Positions 4,847-20,374 of a stretch of DNA of 25,947 bases are shown one piece after another. Position 1 is the stretch's first letter; each line of letters opens with the position of its first letter. Both the position numbers and the translations under genes were made by a program. The notes beneath the pieces were generated by a model, which saw only the letters and a program-made list of their open reading frames with translations, was not told the origin of the DNA and made no database searches. Source of the stretch: a virus; IMG/VR virus record IMGVR_UViG_3300021963_000581, positions 1 through 25,947 of that record; one strand, written 5' to 3'.

Positions 4847-5302
4847 TCATTTTCGTCCGAACCTCCATATAAGCCATAGACAAATAGGTATAAGGCATAA
4901 CCATATGTAAAATAGATAATTTGCTTTCTTTTCAGTCTTCTTCTCAAATCCCTTCTCGTTAACGTCTTTTTTTAATGAAATTTGCTTTTGACTTGATTGT
5001 GTAGTCACTACTTTGGTAGTGTCTACCAATGATTTTCGTACTTTTTTTATCTTTATAACAGCATTAAAATACTTAGTTTCTCCTATAACAATAGGCTTGG
5101 CAGTGTCAATAGGAGTTACCTCTATTTCCTCACTACTATCAGTAATAATAATAGCGTTTTGCTGAACTACTACGCTATCTTTCTTTTCTACAGCTACGCT
5201 GTCAGTATATGTTTGTGTTTGAGTCTTAGTTACAGCCACCTTCCTTGCTGCACAAGAGAATAAAAGGGAAATAACTAACGTCAATATAAAGTATTTCCCC
5301 AT
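4847..5302 (-). CDS. Unimolecular spanin-like lipoprotein (outer-membrane disruption at lysis)
   Basis: A 151-residue protein with an N-terminal lipoprotein signal (hydrophobic residues 4-15, lipobox LLFS-C with Cys17), a Ser/Thr/Lys/Val-rich predicted periplasmic stretch, and a C-terminal transmembrane segment at about residues 127-146 (NYLFYIWLCLIPICLWLIW) followed by a basic tail RFGRK. A lipoprotein N-terminus in the outer membrane plus a C-terminal inner-membrane anchor in one chain is the defining architecture of a u-spanin such as T1 gp11. The gene starts 5 nt after the endolysin and completes a holin-endolysin-spanin order. Spanins diverge too fast for sequence identity, so this rests on topology and position. 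Confidence 0.75.
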   Translation of the reverse strand: MGKYFILTLVISLLFSCAARKVAVTKTQTQTYTDSVAVEKKDSVVVQQNAIIITDSSEEIEVTPIDTAKPIVIGETKYFNAVIKIKKVRKSLVDTTKVVTTQSSQKQISLKKDVNEKGFEKKTEKKANYLFYIWLCLIPICLWLIWRFGRK

Positions 5303-8728: not shown

Positions 8729-9247
8729 TTATTTCCAATGATTATTTTCCATCTCCCACCAAAAAGTTAGGTCCTCTGTACTATCGTTATAATACTCACC
8801 GACATAGTTTGAGTTATAAGCAGAACCTACATTCTCAAACATTGCCACCGTATAAATATCTGTGATACCTCTTTGCTTTAAATAATTATCCAAAAAAGTA
8901 TAGTTGCCACCTCTGATAACCCCGGCTTCAACTAATAATACCCTTTTGTTTTGCAGTTTATTCCCATAAACAGCCATAATATTATTTAGTTCACCCAAGT
9001 ATTTATCGTCCCAATGCTCGTCAGGATAGGGTACATCGACCCCAAACCCATCACAAATCTCCCCATTTGAACTAAGTAAATGCCTTAAAGCCTGACCAAT
9101 TATGGATGAATAGTCTGTAGATACTGTTATGATAACTGTATTGTCAGCACTAAACCCATCCGTAATTAGTTCAGATGCTATCATTTCTATCAAGAACTGC
9201 TCGTCATTAAACGAGACGTTTAATATTTTTTTATTGCTGTTGCTCAT
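8729..9247 (-). CDS. Unknown protein between groEL and groES, possibly phosphoribosyltransferase-like
   Basis: A 172-residue protein from MSNSNKKILNVSFND (a start 27 nt upstream is possible but deepens the groEL overlap). The segment KRVLLVEAGVIRGGNYTFLDNYL resembles the PRPP loop of type I phosphoribosyltransferases (four hydrophobics, acidic residues, then TG-x-T), and the N-terminal half has an alternating helix/strand pattern (NTVIITVSTDYSSIIGQALRHLL). The second acidic residue and the TGxT threonine are absent, so catalysis is doubtful and the fold call is weak. It overlaps the 3' end of groEL by 17 nt and ends 11 nt before groES, so it is tightly embedded in the chaperonin cassette and could be a client-specific factor. 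Confidence 0.6.
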   Translation of the reverse strand: MSNSNKKILNVSFNDEQFLIEMIASELITDGFSADNTVIITVSTDYSSIIGQALRHLLSSNGEICDGFGVDVPYPDEHWDDKYLGELNNIMAVYGNKLQNKRVLLVEAGVIRGGNYTFLDNYLKQRGITDIYTVAMFENVGSAYNSNYVGEYYNDSTEDLTFWWEMENNHWK

Positions 9248-10850
9248 ATGTACGTGCCATTGTAATGATTGCATTAGTGCTAAGAATTGTTACTGCTACA
9301 CTGACAGCATTTTGTAACGCTGACCTTGTAACTTTCAACGGGTCAATAACACCCATCTCAATCAAGTCACCCATCTGACCGGTCTTCAAATTGTACCCGT
9401 GACCAACCGGAGTGCTATCCTTGTAAACATCACTTGGTTTAAGTCCTGCGTTCGTAAGTATCTGTTGGAATGGAGCCATAAGTGCATCTCTCAAAATGTG
9501 AAGTGCTGCATCATATTCCTTACTTGCCTCAGCATATGTGAACAAATCTGCTGACTCATCAAGTAATGCTTTGCCCGCACCCGGTAATATCCCTTCTTCA
9601 AGAGCAGAACGAACTGCACAAACAGCGTCATCAACTCTGTCATACAACTCTTTTTGCTCAAGGTCAGTCTGACCACCTACAAAAATTACGCCTATGCCAC
9701 CCGTAAGTGATGCAATACGCTCTAACAAAAAATCTTTGTCACCTTTTTTAGTTGCTTCTTTGTGTGCGTCCCATAACTGCTTAACTCTTTCGTCAACCAA
9801 AGCCTCGTCAGCCTTCGCTGTACTTCTTATAATCACCGTCTTATCTTTGCTAACTATTACCTTACCTGCGTGACCCAAGTCTCCGTAGTTGATATGGCTT
9901 AAGTCATCACCCGTCTTCTCGCTATAATAAGTTGCACCTACGCTAATTGCAATGTCTTGCATCAACTCGTGCTGCTTATAACCAAAGTTTGGTGGAGGCA
10001 CTGCCACCACTTTCAAATTCCCCTTAACTGAGTTCGCTGCAAGCGTGTTCACTACATTCGTGTTGCACGGAGAAATGATAAGTAACTTCTTGCCTTCTGA
10101 AATGATTGGTTTCAACACATTCTCAATTTGTAAAATATTCGCTATCTCCATATCACATACCAAAACCATAGTGTCTTCAAAGACACACTCGTCTTTTTTA
10201 GCATCATTGATAAACATCGGACTCAAATATCCTCTGTCAAATTTCAACCCTTTAGTGGTCTCTGCATACGTCTCATTTGTTTGGCTTCTTTCCACTGTCA
10301 CAATACCCGTCTTACCCACGTCCTTATAAACCTCAGCTATAATCCTTCCAATCTCTTTGTCGTTGTTTGCAGATATAGCCGCCACGTCCAATAACATTGC
10401 ACTACTGACCTTCTTTGCCTTACGTCTTAACTTGTCCACCACCTTGTTGCTTATGTCCACCATATGTCTTAATACCTCGGTTCTGTTCATATCCTCTTTG
10501 ATATGCTCAAGTCCTCCAAGTACCAATCCCTCTGTCAAAACAATTGCCGTTGTCGTTCCGTCACCCGCAGCGGTAGCTGTTTTGTCTGCCGCCTCTTTCA
10601 TCATCTTAACCGCAAGGTTCTCAGATGGGTCAATCAGGTCAATTGACTTAGCAACTGTTACACCATCCTTAGTAACCGTAATTCCGTGTGTGTGATGTGG
10701 ACTCTCAATTAGTACAGTGTTACCACTTGGTCCGAGTGTTGACTTAACAGCCTTTGACATCTTAACGACACCACTAATAAGTTTCTTTCTTCCTTCTGAA
10801 CCGAACTGCAAATCTTTGGGTGAGTACCCAATGCCTGATGTTTCTACCAT
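9231..10850 (-). CDS. groEL: Phage-encoded chaperonin GroEL (HSP60)
   Basis: A 539-residue full-length chaperonin that folds proteins in an ATP-driven ring. Signatures seen: TLGPSGNTVLI (38-48), TKDGVTVAKSI (60-70, Asp62 matching E. coli Asp52), GDGTTT (96-101), ISANND (159-164), DRGYLSP (205-211), and VDDAVCAVRSALEEGILPGAG (406-426, Asp408 matching the ATPase Asp398). A 10-residue N-terminal extension explains the numbering shift. The C-terminus ends RTYEQQQ and lacks the flexible GGM tail of bacterial GroEL. It is the first gene of the leftward late block, next to groES, so folding of capsid or fibre proteins is the likely role. A -7 promoter-like box and an inverted repeat lie in its leader. 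It is intact, with no sign of decay. Confidence 0.95.
   Translation of the reverse strand: MVETSGIGYSPKDLQFGSEGRKKLISGVVKMSKAVKSTLGPSGNTVLIESPHHTHGITVTKDGVTVAKSIDLIDPSENLAVKMMKEAADKTATAAGDGTTTAIVLTEGLVLGGLEHIKEDMNRTEVLRHMVDISNKVVDKLRRKAKKVSSAMLLDVAAISANNDKEIGRIIAEVYKDVGKTGIVTVERSQTNETYAETTKGLKFDRGYLSPMFINDAKKDECVFEDTMVLVCDMEIANILQIENVLKPIISEGKKLLIISPCNTNVVNTLAANSVKGNLKVVAVPPPNFGYKQHELMQDIAISVGATYYSEKTGDDLSHINYGDLGHAGKVIVSKDKTVIIRSTAKADEALVDERVKQLWDAHKEATKKGDKDFLLERIASLTGGIGVIFVGGQTDLEQKELYDRVDDAVCAVRSALEEGILPGAGKALLDESADLFTYAEASKEYDAALHILRDALMAPFQQILTNAGLKPSDVYKDSTPVGHGYNLKTGQMGDLIEMGVIDPLKVTRSALQNAVSVAVTILSTNAIITMARTYEQQQ
10171..10186. repeat. GTGTC-TTCAAA-GACAC palindrome inside groEL
   Basis: GTGTC (10171-10175) and GACAC (10182-10186) flank TTCAAA. 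It is the same hairpin family seen between rightward genes. Here it lies in the coding region for CVFEDT (222-227) of GroEL, so its sequence is partly explained by codons. Confidence 0.6.
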
Positions 10851-12861: not shown

Positions 12862-12862
12862 G

Positions 12863-12878
12863 GTGTCCTCAAAGACAC
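12863..12878 (+). repeat. GTGTC-CTCAAA-GACAC hairpin after the first early gene
   Basis: A 5-bp perfect stem (extended by a G-T pair) with a 6-nt loop, starting 2 nt after the stop codon and ending 2 nt before tRNA-like element A. It would remain as the 3' end of the upstream mRNA if the element is cut at its 5' side. Confidence 0.7.
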
Positions 12879-12880
12879 TA

Positions 12881-12921
12881 TCTGAGAATGGTTTCAGGGA
12901 TGTTCGATTCATCCCCTCAGA
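12881..12921 (+). ncRNA. Minimal tRNA-like structure A (acceptor stem + D-loop motif + T-arm, no anticodon arm)
   Basis: TCTGAG (12881-12886) pairs with CTCAGA (12916-12921). GGGATG (12897-12902) pairs with CATCCC (12910-12915) around the loop TTCGATT (12903-12909), a perfect T-loop. Acceptor plus T-stem give 12 bp with no gap, the same total as in a tRNA (7+5). The connecting 10 nt (12887-12896) start AATGG, as in a D-loop able to contact the T-loop. There is no D-stem and no anticodon arm, so it cannot decode. RNase P recognises such mini-substrates, so a processing site is the likely role. Confidence 0.6.
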
Positions 12922-12955: not shown

Positions 12956-13873
12956 ATGCAACAAGGAATCGTTTACGGATTGACGGGAGAGTCAGCAAGA
13001 GGTAACGCTCACACGAGGTACCACCACAAGCCTGACCCATTATTTTTGAACAAAACAAAGTTCAAATCTGATGTCAGCGGATTAAAAAAAGCACAGCTAC
13101 GCCAAGCAATTTTGGAGACAGCTATGGAGATGACATCGAAGTTCACCATTGGAATGGAGGTGGAGAAAAACCAATTGCATAGAGGTGCAGTTAGGGAGTA
13201 CGAAATTTTCTGCGGATTTGAGGAGGATGGTAGCTGTGGCTACGAGGCAGTGACACACGTGTTACCATTGTTACCATCAGGTGTATGGCGTACAAAGGTG
13301 TACGATATGATGCACAAGGCAGAGCGAATCATCGATGATAGGTACAGCCCATCTGATAGACGTTGTGGTGGTCACATCACCATAGCTGTGGAGGGATTGA
13401 ATGGTGTGCAGTTGAATCGTGCTATCAGGAAGAATTGTGGCATCGTATTAGCGTTATTCAAAAAGAGACTGAACAGCAAATATTGTGGGTCAAATCGTAG
13501 GATGCAAGACCTGAGTGAGACCAACGTCAATTCGTGGGGAGGTGCATATGAGTATAGGTCAACACAAGCACACCACAAGTACCAAACAGCATTGGTGAAA
13601 GGTAAGTGTTTGGAGTTCAGAGTGCCGAGCAGATTCCAATCAGTAAAGCAGATGATGAGACGTTACGAGTTATTCTATGAGATAGTGAACTTTACTATCA
13701 ATAGACCTAATGGCACACACGATGCGTTACTTAAAATCCTTAAGCCTATCGTACTATCAATGTACAATGGTGACGTTGACAAGACGGATGAGGTGATAGC
13801 GTTATCAAAGCATTTCAGGAAGTTCATTATGAGAGGTGAGATACACCAAGACATCGCCACCTACCTTGCGTAG
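12956..13873 (+). CDS. Putative amidoligase (glutamine-synthetase-fold ligase, Amidoligase_2-like)
   Basis: A 305-residue protein. The motif order fits the amidoligase branch of the glutamine-synthetase/COOH-NH2 ligase fold: GMEVE (66-70, metal/ATP acidic pair), GYEAVT (95-100), CGGHITI (137-143, the GxHxx strand), and CLEFRVPS (218-225, the ExR element) followed by the helix MMRRYELFYEIVNF. Such enzymes use ATP to form amide or peptide bonds. The gene for a glutamine amidotransferase/gamma-glutamylcyclotransferase fusion lies about 1.3 kb downstream in the same operon, and I recall comparative studies linking these families in phages, so they probably act together in making or trimming a gamma-glutamyl-type modification. 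Substrate unknown. A tRNA-like element flanks it on each side. Confidence 0.72.
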   Translation: MQQGIVYGLTGESARGNAHTRYHHKPDPLFLNKTKFKSDVSGLKKAQLRQAILETAMEMTSKFTIGMEVEKNQLHRGAVREYEIFCGFEEDGSCGYEAVTHVLPLLPSGVWRTKVYDMMHKAERIIDDRYSPSDRRCGGHITIAVEGLNGVQLNRAIRKNCGIVLALFKKRLNSKYCGSNRRMQDLSETNVNSWGGAYEYRSTQAHHKYQTALVKGKCLEFRVPSRFQSVKQMMRRYELFYEIVNFTINRPNGTHDALLKILKPIVLSMYNGDVDKTDEVIALSKHFRKFIMRGEIHQDIATYLA

Positions 13874-13877
13874 GTGG
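13857..13877 (+). repeat. 8-bp hairpin overlapping the amidoligase stop codon
   Basis: CCACCTAC (13857-13864) and GTAGGTGG (13870-13877) are perfectly complementary around CTTGC. The stem includes the TAG stop at 13871-13873 and ends 5 nt before tRNA-like element B, taking the place held by the GTGTC hairpin at the other junctions. Confidence 0.7.
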
Positions 13878-13882
13878 TGGTA

Positions 13883-13942
13883 GCTGTGAATGGATGAGGA
13901 TGCGTAAGCAGACTCGTTGAGGGTTCGATTCCCTTACACAGC
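13883..13942 (+). ncRNA. tRNA-like structure B with GNRA hairpin in place of the anticodon arm
   Basis: GCTGTG (13883-13888) pairs with CACAGC (13937-13942). The T-arm GAGGG / CCCTT (13919-13923 / 13931-13935) encloses the loop TTCGATT. An AATGG motif (13889-13893) sits in the D-loop position. The middle folds as GAG-GA-TGC-GTAA-GCA-GA-CTC (13896-13915): two 3-bp stems stacked through a tandem G-A / G-A mismatch and capped by a GNRA tetraloop. This is not an anticodon loop, so it is not a decoding tRNA. A degenerate tRNA is the alternative. Confidence 0.6.
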
Positions 13943-13972
13943 CCTAAACCAAGTCCCGAGAGGGCAACAAAA

Positions 13973-15038: not shown

Positions 15039-15105
15039 AATAAATTTGGCAATGTCGAATTTATGTCTTATCTTCGTTCAATATCAGTTCAATAACAAGG
15101 GTTCT

Positions 15106-15121
15106 GTGTCTTCAAGGACAC
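15106..15121 (+). repeat. GTGTC-TTCAAG-GACAC hairpin before the amidotransferase gene
   Basis: A 5-bp stem with 6-nt loop in a 105-nt gap. The flanks AGGG and CCC match those of the 16278 copy. No ribozyme or tRNA-like element follows; the next gene starts 22 nt later. Confidence 0.65.
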
Positions 15122-15143
15122 TGCCCACAAACAAATTTAGCTT

Positions 15144-16262
15144 ATGTGTGTGATTATTATCAAGCAGAAGGGTAAGAGAATCCCTCGAGAGGTTGCAAAG
15201 ACTTCAGCGAACATCAATCCCCACGGATTGGGTATTATTTGGTTGGACACGTTCGAGGTTACTTACCATCAGTCTACAGCCTACAAGTTGTTAGACACTG
15301 AGCGACCATTCATTGCTCACTTCAGGTATGCCACCATTGGTGCTATCAATAGAGAGAACACGCATCCATTCAGATGCGGTAACAACAAGCAAGAGTGGTT
15401 GATGATGAACGGAACGATTAAGAATCTCGGTGATGCCAAGAAGAGTGACTCAAGAGTGTTGGCGGAGAACTTAGGTGAGATACCAAGACACAAGTGGAAG
15501 CAAGAGTTGGAAGGGTATGAGTGTAGGTTCGTGTCAGTCAACACGCACAGCAAGACGTATCAGATTTACAACAAAGAGTTGTGGACTCAAAGAGATGGTG
15601 TGTGGTACAGCAAGGACAATGTCATTGAGGACAATTTAATTGCTGTTTACGGCACGTTGAAGAAGGGGTATAACAACTACTACAGCTACCTGAGTACGTC
15701 CAAATTTGTGGCTAATGGTGAGACCAAGGATAAGTATCCGCTCATAGTCAGTGGACTACCTTACTTGATTGAGGAGCGTGGAGTAGGTTACAATGTGGAT
15801 GTGGACGTGTTCAGGGTGAGTAACACGACACTAAAGAATCTCGATAGATTGGAGGGTCATCCGGTGTGGTACAAGCGTAAGCAGATAGACATCAAGACCA
15901 AGACCGGAGTGCTTAAGTGTTGGGTGTACTTCAACATCAAAGAGACTGCGGGTGGTAAGGTGTATCACAAGAGTTATTCGCAGAAGGCGAAGCCCCTGAG
16001 TTTTTGGGAGAAGGAGGACGTGGTGGAGAGTAAAAAGTATGAGAGCATATTCAGTAACTATGGCTATGAGGAGCCTAAGAGTGTGTTCCTGACGAGTATA
16101 TTGGACGAGGAGTGTGATGACTGCGAGTTCGACATAGAGAATGAAAAGCCTATATGTGTGAATTGCTTTCAGGACTTACAGCACGATGCGTTCTCAAATT
16201 ATCATTGTAGTGGTTGCGATGAGTGGTTCACTGAGTCTGAGGTTTTACGATTCCAATCTTAG
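15144..16262 (+). CDS. Class II glutamine amidotransferase + gamma-glutamylcyclotransferase + zinc-ribbon fusion
   Basis: A 372-residue three-part protein. Residues 1-about 150 form an Ntn-type glutaminase: Cys2 becomes the N-terminal nucleophile after Met removal, followed by NPHGLGI (25-31), HFRYAT (59-64) and MNG (88-90). Residues about 165-265 are AIG2/GGCT-like: YGTLKKG (169-175, substrate loop) and LDRLEGHP (233-240) with Glu237 in the place of the catalytic acid. The C-terminus has CxxC pairs at 324/327, 338/341 and 355/358, a zinc ribbon. The first part would release ammonia from glutamine; the second cyclises and cleaves gamma-glutamyl amides. With the amidoligase upstream this suggests a phage pathway that builds and edits gamma-glutamyl bonds on an unknown target. 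A hairpin and hammerhead ribozyme follow it. Confidence 0.82.
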   Translation: MCVIIIKQKGKRIPREVAKTSANINPHGLGIIWLDTFEVTYHQSTAYKLLDTERPFIAHFRYATIGAINRENTHPFRCGNNKQEWLMMNGTIKNLGDAKKSDSRVLAENLGEIPRHKWKQELEGYECRFVSVNTHSKTYQIYNKELWTQRDGVWYSKDNVIEDNLIAVYGTLKKGYNNYYSYLSTSKFVANGETKDKYPLIVSGLPYLIEERGVGYNVDVDVFRVSNTTLKNLDRLEGHPVWYKRKQIDIKTKTGVLKCWVYFNIKETAGGKVYHKSYSQKAKPLSFWEKEDVVESKKYESIFSNYGYEEPKSVFLTSILDEECDDCEFDIENEKPICVNCFQDLQHDAFSNYHCSGCDEWFTESEVLRFQS

Positions 16263-16271
16263 ACTTGGCTT

Positions 16272-16299
16272 AGGGTGGTGTCCTCAAAGACACTGCCCT
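16272..16299 (+). repeat. Extended GTGTC-family hairpin before the hammerhead ribozyme
   Basis: The GTGTC-CTCAAA-GACAC core (16278-16293) is extended by tandem G-T wobbles and AGGG/CCCT to a continuous 11-bp stem. It begins 9 nt after the stop codon and its last base is the first base of ribozyme stem III, so ribozyme cleavage after 16304 leaves it at the 3' end of the upstream mRNA. Confidence 0.75.
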
Positions 16300-16350
16300 C
16301 CGTATCGAGATGAGTTGTCTCGACTGATGATTCCGAAAGGATGAAACGGA
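16299..16350 (+). ncRNA. Type III hammerhead self-cleaving ribozyme
   Basis: All core parts are present in order. Stem III is TCCGT (16299-16303) with ACGGA (16346-16350). The cleavage triplet is GTA (16302-16304, NUH rule), then stem I TCGAGA / TCTCGA (16305-16310 / 16318-16323) with a 7-nt loop. The conserved CTGATGA (16324-16330) follows, then stem II TCC / GGA capped by GAAA (16332-16341), then GAAA (16343-16346). Predicted cut is after A16304. The only weak point is a T-T pair at 10.1/11.1 at the base of stem II, where G-C is usual; this may slow cleavage. It lies between the amidotransferase fusion and a small gene starting 22 nt later. Confidence 0.85.
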
Positions 16351-20264: not shown

Positions 20265-20355
20265 TGTCAGATAGCTTAATGGTCATAATTAAATTGACCC
20301 TTGAGGAATTAGAGCACTCGCAAGAGATGGTGTGGGTTCGATTCCCACTCTGACG
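20265..20355 (+). ncRNA. tRNA-like structure C with D-loop insertion and GNRA mini-arm instead of anticodon arm
   Basis: The 7-bp acceptor TGTCAGA / TCTGACG (20265-20271 / 20349-20355, last pair T-G) is followed by T8-A9 (TA). The D-stem GCTT / GAGC (20274-20277 / 20312-20315) has the D-loop motif AATGG, and the T-arm GTGGG / CCCAC (20332-20336 / 20344-20348) has the loop TTCGATT. The spacer before the T-arm is 5 nt, as in tRNA. Two things break the tRNA: about 26 extra nt in the D-loop (from 20284 to about 20309), and an anticodon arm cut to CTC-GCAA-GAG (20317-20326), a GNRA hairpin. The 3' end reads ACAAC, not CCA. A degenerate tRNA or a tRNA with an insert are alternatives. Confidence 0.65.
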
Positions 20356-20374
20356 ACAACTAATTTTTAACTTA

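Follow-up and report, generated by a model that had tools for sequence, protein, structure and literature searches.

What might a hammerhead ribozyme be doing between two genes of a phage? The question is raised by nucleotides 16299-16350 of the window, our term for the whole 25,947-nucleotide stretch of DNA that was analysed (IMG/VR virus record IMGVR_UViG_3300021963_000581). The initial annotation had seen a complete type III hammerhead core here, straight after a hairpin at a gene boundary, and had suggested that it forms the 3′ end of the amidotransferase message. The role of bacterial and phage hammerheads has been described as an open question (PMC6155905).

All the parts listed in that annotation (GTA cleavage triplet, 6-bp stem I, CTGATGA, GAAA-capped stem II, GAAA and 5-bp stem III) were located in the sequence where it had placed them (Table 1), and the Rfam match, covariation and conservation agree with the assignment. 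The GUA at 16302-16304 conforms to the NUH rule for cleavage triplets. The core elements CUGANGA, GAA and A15.1-U16.1 are present at 16324-16330 and 16343-16346 and are invariant among relatives; the GAAA (16343-16346) shares A16346 with the 3′ strand of stem III (ACGGA, 16346-16350). The open end is stem III, which gives the type III helix order, and all three stems covary. Sequence comparison over 134 copies indicated conservation of both loops, UGWGUG-like in stem I and NAAA in stem II, as a tertiary contact between them would require. The G10.1-C11.1 pair closing stem II is absent from the window copy, where, as had been noticed, U-U (T-T in the DNA) takes its place. Folding the intergenic segment in full to minimum free energy yields a single structure with the upstream hairpin and hammerhead stems I-III. 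A model built from the relatives found no second hammerhead in the window, the next best score being 9.9 bits.

Table 1 Features of the window discussed in the text
Feature	Position	Strand	Basis
Hairpin GGTGTC-CTCAAA-GACACT straight after the stop of the 219-aa gene	12862..12879	+	fold
41-nt tRNA-like minihelix: 6-bp acceptor, linker AATGGTTTCAG, T-arm with TTCGATT	12881..12921	+	fold, search
305-aa gene	12956-13873	+	
12-bp hairpin across the stop of the 305-aa gene	13853..13881	+	fold
tRNA-like element, 1 nt behind the hairpin of the 305-aa gene	13883..13943	+	z -4.5 with hairpin
Upstream gene, 372-aa GATase_6 glutamine amidotransferase-GGACT gamma-glutamyl cyclotransferase fusion, stop TAG	15144..16262	+	Pfam
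Upstream hairpin GGGTGGTGTC-CTCAAA-GACACTGCCC, 10 bp	16273..16298	+	fold; adjoins stem III, 0 gap
Type III hammerhead, complete	16299-16350	+	sequence, Rfam, covariation
Stem III, 5 bp, TCCGT/ACGGA	16299-16303/16346-16350	+	sequence, Rfam, relatives' model, covariation
Cleavage triplet GTA (GUA)	16302-16304	+	sequence, Rfam; predicted cut after A16304
Stem I, 6 bp	16305-16310/16318-16323	+	all pairs covary among relatives
Stem I loop TGAGTTG (UGAGUUG)	16311-16317	+	sequence
Core CTGATGA (CUGAUGA)	16324-16330	+	unchanged among relatives save N7
Stem II UUCC-GAAA-GGAU, U-U at 10.1/11.1	16331-16342	+	sequence, covariation alignment
Core GAA + A15.1, then stem III 3′ strand (GAAACGGA)	16343-16350	+	sequence, Rfam
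Downstream gene, 74 aa	16373..16597	+	ATG 22 nt 3′ of stem III

The initial annotation had proposed an Rfam comparison as a check. Hammerhead_3 (RF00008) is the sole meaningful match at 16299-16350 (34.2 bits, E 1.2e-5), and its score lies below the gathering score of 48.5 because the 10.1/11.1 pair is U-U. The annotation would have given up the hammerhead on a sub-threshold score combined with a lack of conservation; the score is indeed sub-threshold, yet all 20 phages of the window's nearest supported clade carry a hammerhead at the 3′ site of this gene. With the same model, copies were found in 27 of 30 related records and just one match exceeded the model's own cut-off. Nearly all copies of the family thus fall below the cut-off and nevertheless covary, so the low score of the window copy is no objection to it. 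Annotation at Rfam cut-offs overlooks almost this entire family of hairpin-hammerheads.

A strict descriptor run over 0.67 Mb of DNA around relatives of the GATase_6/GGACT gene returned 135 hammerheads. Every one of them lies on the gene strand; the opposite strand, the reversed DNA and 5x local shuffles of the same DNA gave none. When 95 distinct copies were aligned, 96% of the cells were paired and 13 of the 15 pairs had two-sided changes, giving a covariation score of 0.761 against 0.232 for shuffled and at most 0.132 for slid controls; stem I was paired in 100% of cells with two-sided changes in 6/6 pairs. The relatives' model scores the window copy, itself one of the 95 model-building sequences, at 71.7 bits (E 2e-16) and identifies 1-5 copies per record in 44 of 48 whole related phage records. 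From these comparisons, 16299-16350 is a genuine member of the type III hammerhead class and is predicted to cleave itself.

Hammerheads strongly, though not absolutely, prefer a G10.1-C11.1 closing pair. Within the family alignments G-C, U-U, A-A and rarely G-U are observed at this position, neither A-U nor C-G occurs, and U-U or A-A is found in 30 of 95 relatives, about a third. Copies with U-U carry A17 or U17; C17 accompanies U-U in 0/37 copies versus 76/92 for G-C. The avoidance of C17 by U-U recurs in an independent sample with one exception (Fisher 3e-4 on clusters below 75% identity). Relatedness inflates these counts and the tree provides too few independent pairs for a decision, so the alignments suggest but do not prove a coupling of U-U to a nucleotide 17 other than C. 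Both U-U and A17 of the window copy deviate from the fastest core, and together they could make cleavage slow. Natural U10.1-U11.1 hammerheads and activity of the mismatch have been reported (PMC3088659), thus the preference for G10.1-C11.1 does not define the class.

The gene upstream of the ribozyme had been called an amidotransferase, and Pfam bears this out, finding GATase_6 (3.2e-6) fused to GGACT (6.3e-20); more than 80 relatives of this gene are present in IMG/VR. Its stop codon is followed by the hairpin at 16273-16298, which meets stem III with no gap, just as had been described. There is no U-run behind the hairpin at 16299-16310, and the site does not qualify there as an intrinsic terminator. 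We predict that this hairpin is the 3′ end of the processed upstream message. We note that another hairpin, GGGTTCTGTGTCTTCAAGGACACTGCCC at 15099-15126, sits shortly before the GATase_6/GGACT gene with neither cutter nor U-run, and that many relatives have a similar one at the equivalent place.

Almost every copy of the family has the same order of parts: stop codon, roughly 5-14 nt, hairpin, hammerhead, some 20-25 nt and the next ATG. The hairpin has 6-15 bp and abuts stem III. A hairpin score of 7 or more is observed beside 110 of 133 hammerheads (10% of random sites), the gap to stem III being 0 nt in 99 of these 110, and the copies with an adjoining hairpin have 70 different hairpin stem sequences. 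The tail between hairpin and predicted cut is 4-7 nt long in 110 of 119 copies, with a median of 6; stem III itself is short, 4-5 bp in 101 of 119. The preceding stop codon lies 4-14 nt before the hairpin in 94/113 cases; in 88/134, no more than about 50 nt separate the hammerhead from the beginning of the next ORF of 50 aa or longer. ORFs were called mechanically for these distances, so the longer ones in part reflect small genes. One particular hairpin, GTGTCTTCAAAGACAC, was considered as a specific bait for hammerheads and rejected, since the motif also occurs widely in phages of other kinds, within coding sequence and in the role of a terminator.

The arrangement recurs, less frequently, in two other samples. 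An independent set of viral contigs, chosen by the hammerhead alone, has a hairpin score of at least 6 in 96 of 136 cases (background 20%), and in contigs of bacterial genome assemblies, mostly labelled Patescibacteria, the hairpin is present in 18 of 31. A set of MAG contigs (L332-L357), again mostly labelled Patescibacteria, contains type III hammerheads whose loops follow the same design, and in many of them a hairpin adjoins the ribozyme. A hairpin with an 11-nt loop, for example GAGCA-AGGCGTTAAAC-TGCTC, is present in some of these contigs and in phages L017, L064, L065 and L079.

What stands at the end of the GATase_6/GGACT gene in other phages is informative. A hammerhead follows the stop codon in 35 of 70. 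A similar hairpin is followed by a T-run, as in an intrinsic terminator, in L056, L058, L064, L065 and L074; the hairpin stands alone in L057, L068, L069 and L076, and a tRNA-like element is found in L042 and L043. The automatic site classes are rough, L074 having been labelled a hairpin despite its T-run and L043 being actually tRNA-like. Phage L070 has a type I hammerhead at 5144-5215 (Rfam RAGATH-1 match, E 0.006); because stem III of a type I hammerhead is a closed hairpin ending at the cut, the upstream product would again be hairpin-ended. Some sites in relatives have a hairpin with neither cutter nor U-run, some gene ends are bare, and the presence of a hammerhead at a given site is patchy among distant relatives. 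Other compact structures were seen at equivalent gene ends in L055/L081 (after 5089) and L063 (after 5047), and L085/L086 have a compact structured element after their homologue of the 305-aa gene; the forms in this group are a 72-nt closed domain, a three-way-like fold and a possible pseudoknot. These compact elements could be further types of cutter.

The 305-aa gene of the window, for which no match was found among Pfam, PHROGs and PDB sequences, provides a second site. Its 3′ site has a hairpin and hammerhead in 48 of 59 relatives by a strict test, and in more by eye, and the pair is retained behind homologues at 31-50% protein identity. In L060 the copy at this site has an altered core, CTGATGT (A9 changed). 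L070 carries a type I-like hammerhead here too, so that both its gene ends are type I where its relatives have type III. Whereas a hammerhead follows the hairpin at this site in most relatives, in the window a tRNA-like element does. No Rfam family matches 13883-13943 significantly, a weak match to tRNA-Sec reaching 21.6 bits. A third gene, of 219 aa, ends in a hairpin followed by a tRNA-like minihelix; a search for such minihelices in reversed DNA gave 0 matches. In both tRNA-like elements (12881-12921 and 13883-13943) an acceptor stem is stacked on a T-arm with a TTCRANN loop, and the normal D/anticodon domain is missing. Similar minihelices of 41-46 nt, with a linker that is mostly D-loop-like ATGGT, are present in L042, L043, L045, L057 and L061. 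A hairpin and a possible cutter thus mark the ends of three genes in the window (16273-16350, 13853-13943 and 12862-12921). We propose that the tRNA-like elements are alternative cutters, putative substrates of RNase P.

Two further observations concern other parts of the window. At 20265-20356 there is a tRNA-like gene with a long variable region, which scores above the Rfam tRNA gathering score (37.8 bits) and is not called by ARAGORN. The minus strand at 9231-10850 encodes a GroEL-type chaperonin (Cpn60_TCP1 3e-61; PHROG groEL 5e-136); it is also conserved in MW202828, a related phage.

The alternatives seen at these gene ends share a hairpin that would become 3′-terminal, either by termination or by a cut behind it, which suggests that the unit makes the 3′ ends of messages. 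The suggestion of 3′-end formation in the initial annotation is thereby supported at the level of sequence, since a hairpin abuts nearly all copies and a U-run or another cutter replaces the hammerhead at orthologous ends. We think it likely that the hammerhead and the hairpin in front of it are a cis-cleaving message-end cassette that splits a long early transcript. As polymerase passes the gene boundary, the hammerhead would fold and cut after A16304. The upstream message would be left with its 10-bp hairpin and, behind it, roughly 6 nt ending in a 2′,3′-cyclic phosphate, an end that 3′ exonucleases should find hard to enter. To engage structured RNA, RNase R needs a single-stranded stretch of about 7 nt (PMC12320835); with tails of 4-7 nt, the upstream product should thus be poorly accessible to it. 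The downstream message would begin with a 5′-OH right at stem I, some 70 nt ahead of the next gene. The cassette would in this way provide a terminator-like 3′ end while transcription continues, so that one long early transcript could be divided into separate messages. We infer from the sequences that cleavage would occur in the cell, protecting the 3′ end and affecting expression, and that RNase P would act on the tRNA-like elements. Against the cassette stand the possibly slow core, the gene ends of relatives with a lone hairpin or nothing at all, the weakness of an outer helix around hairpin and ribozyme, and the patchy presence, which might equally come from the spread of a neutral or selfish element.

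More tentatively, and with rather less confidence than doubt, we extend this to a set of exchangeable two-part cassettes, each with a 3′-protecting hairpin and a cutter. A hammerhead of type III or type I, or a truncated tRNA mimic cut by host RNase P, would as cutter take the place of the U-run of an intrinsic terminator, the cores with U-U and a non-C nucleotide 17 being a second natural core type. If the cassette is real, early message ends of these phages would be formed without ending transcription, and one phage transcript would be split into separately stable messages without terminators. The fixed anatomy, the position at gene ends and the natural swaps make for a precise claim, that phage hammerheads are makers of message ends.

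The zero gap, the short stem III and the closeness of the ribozyme's end to the next ORF would also be expected if the cut served the downstream side, through a 5′-OH leader or a ribosome site that is exposed or hidden, with the hairpin a co-axial prop for stem III. A stacking prop covers the zero gap but not the similar hairpins that, at the ends of orthologous genes, stand by themselves or beside a U-run or tRNA-like element; the hairpin is used there without a hammerhead and so has a role that does not depend on stem III. Spacing to the upstream stop is also tighter than that to the next start, and the downstream genes vary among relatives. We regard a purpose on the downstream side as unlikely, if still worth weighing.

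A regulated switch, with folding tied to translation, to polymerase pausing at the hairpin or to an effector so as to tune the adjoining genes, seems improbable. Some copies do have strong alternative pairing between the upstream and downstream flanks, e.g. TGTGTTAG/CTAACACA, and the U-U and A17 cores may be slow on purpose. Pairing of the flanks, however, barely exceeds the shuffled expectation (11.5 versus 11.0) and is not conserved; an outer helix enclosing hairpin and ribozyme was dropped as a general feature, being weakly above shuffled flanks, and there is no aptamer-like domain between hairpin and ribozyme. The hammerhead might also be a selfish or neutral relic that has spread among phages, possibly inactive and without function for the message. 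Its patchy presence in distant relatives and the changed core in L060 would fit, but the stems covary around an otherwise invariant core, the same gene end is kept across proteins 31-50% identical, stem sequences have fully turned over with pairing retained, and the copies are always on the gene strand; we give this reading very little credence. A chance match to the hammerhead consensus, in whose favour stands the sub-threshold Rfam score, is refuted by covariation, the relatives' model scores, conservation (44/48 records) and the strand and shuffle controls (135 versus 0), and can be set aside.

The cassette reading can be placed against known systems. With RF00008 type III hammerheads the family shares the CUGANGA/GAA(A) core, the NUH site, the type III stem order and closed stems I and II, whose loops might make contact; it differs in having U-U or A-A at 10.1/11.1 in about a third of copies, an upstream hairpin fused to the ribozyme and scores that are nearly all below the cut-off. 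RAGATH-1 hammerheads (RF03152) are represented at the GATase_6/GGACT gene end by the L070 element, with a type I topology in which stem III itself supplies the hairpin at the 3′ end of the upstream product. Intrinsic (Rho-independent) terminators likewise have a hairpin soon after the stop, and the GTGTC-NNNNNN-GACAC hairpin of relatives bears a U-run; the window site has none, and its 3′ end is proposed to arise by cutting and not by polymerase release. Processing of polycistronic RNA at tRNAs by RNase P (tRNA punctuation) is established. The tRNA-like elements behind comparable hairpins at equivalent gene ends resemble it, while differing in that they are truncated, putative RNase P substrates and that at the GATase gene the cutter is a ribozyme.

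The closest published counterparts are hammerheads in tandem around prophage genes, for which processing of long transcripts was proposed (Perreault et al. 2011, PMC3088659); an array from A. tumefaciens cleaves in vitro and in E. coli (PMC3088659). As here, several hammerheads flank single genes or short gene blocks. That text does not mention an upstream or terminator-like hairpin, whereas here hairpin and hammerhead form one unit that is kept behind orthologous genes and gives way, in some phages, to a terminator or a tRNA-like element. In the open literature searched, neither a hairpin-cutter cassette nor the interchangeability of such cassettes was found, nor anything on hairpin-hammerhead units, hammerheads of Patescibacteria or hammerheads with terminators. 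Arrays of hammerheads in phages, their proposed part in transcript processing and natural U10.1-U11.1 cores have been described before; what goes beyond them is that hairpin and cutter form a fixed unit, that orthologous genes keep it at their ends, and that terminators, type I hammerheads and tRNA-like elements can stand there in its place.
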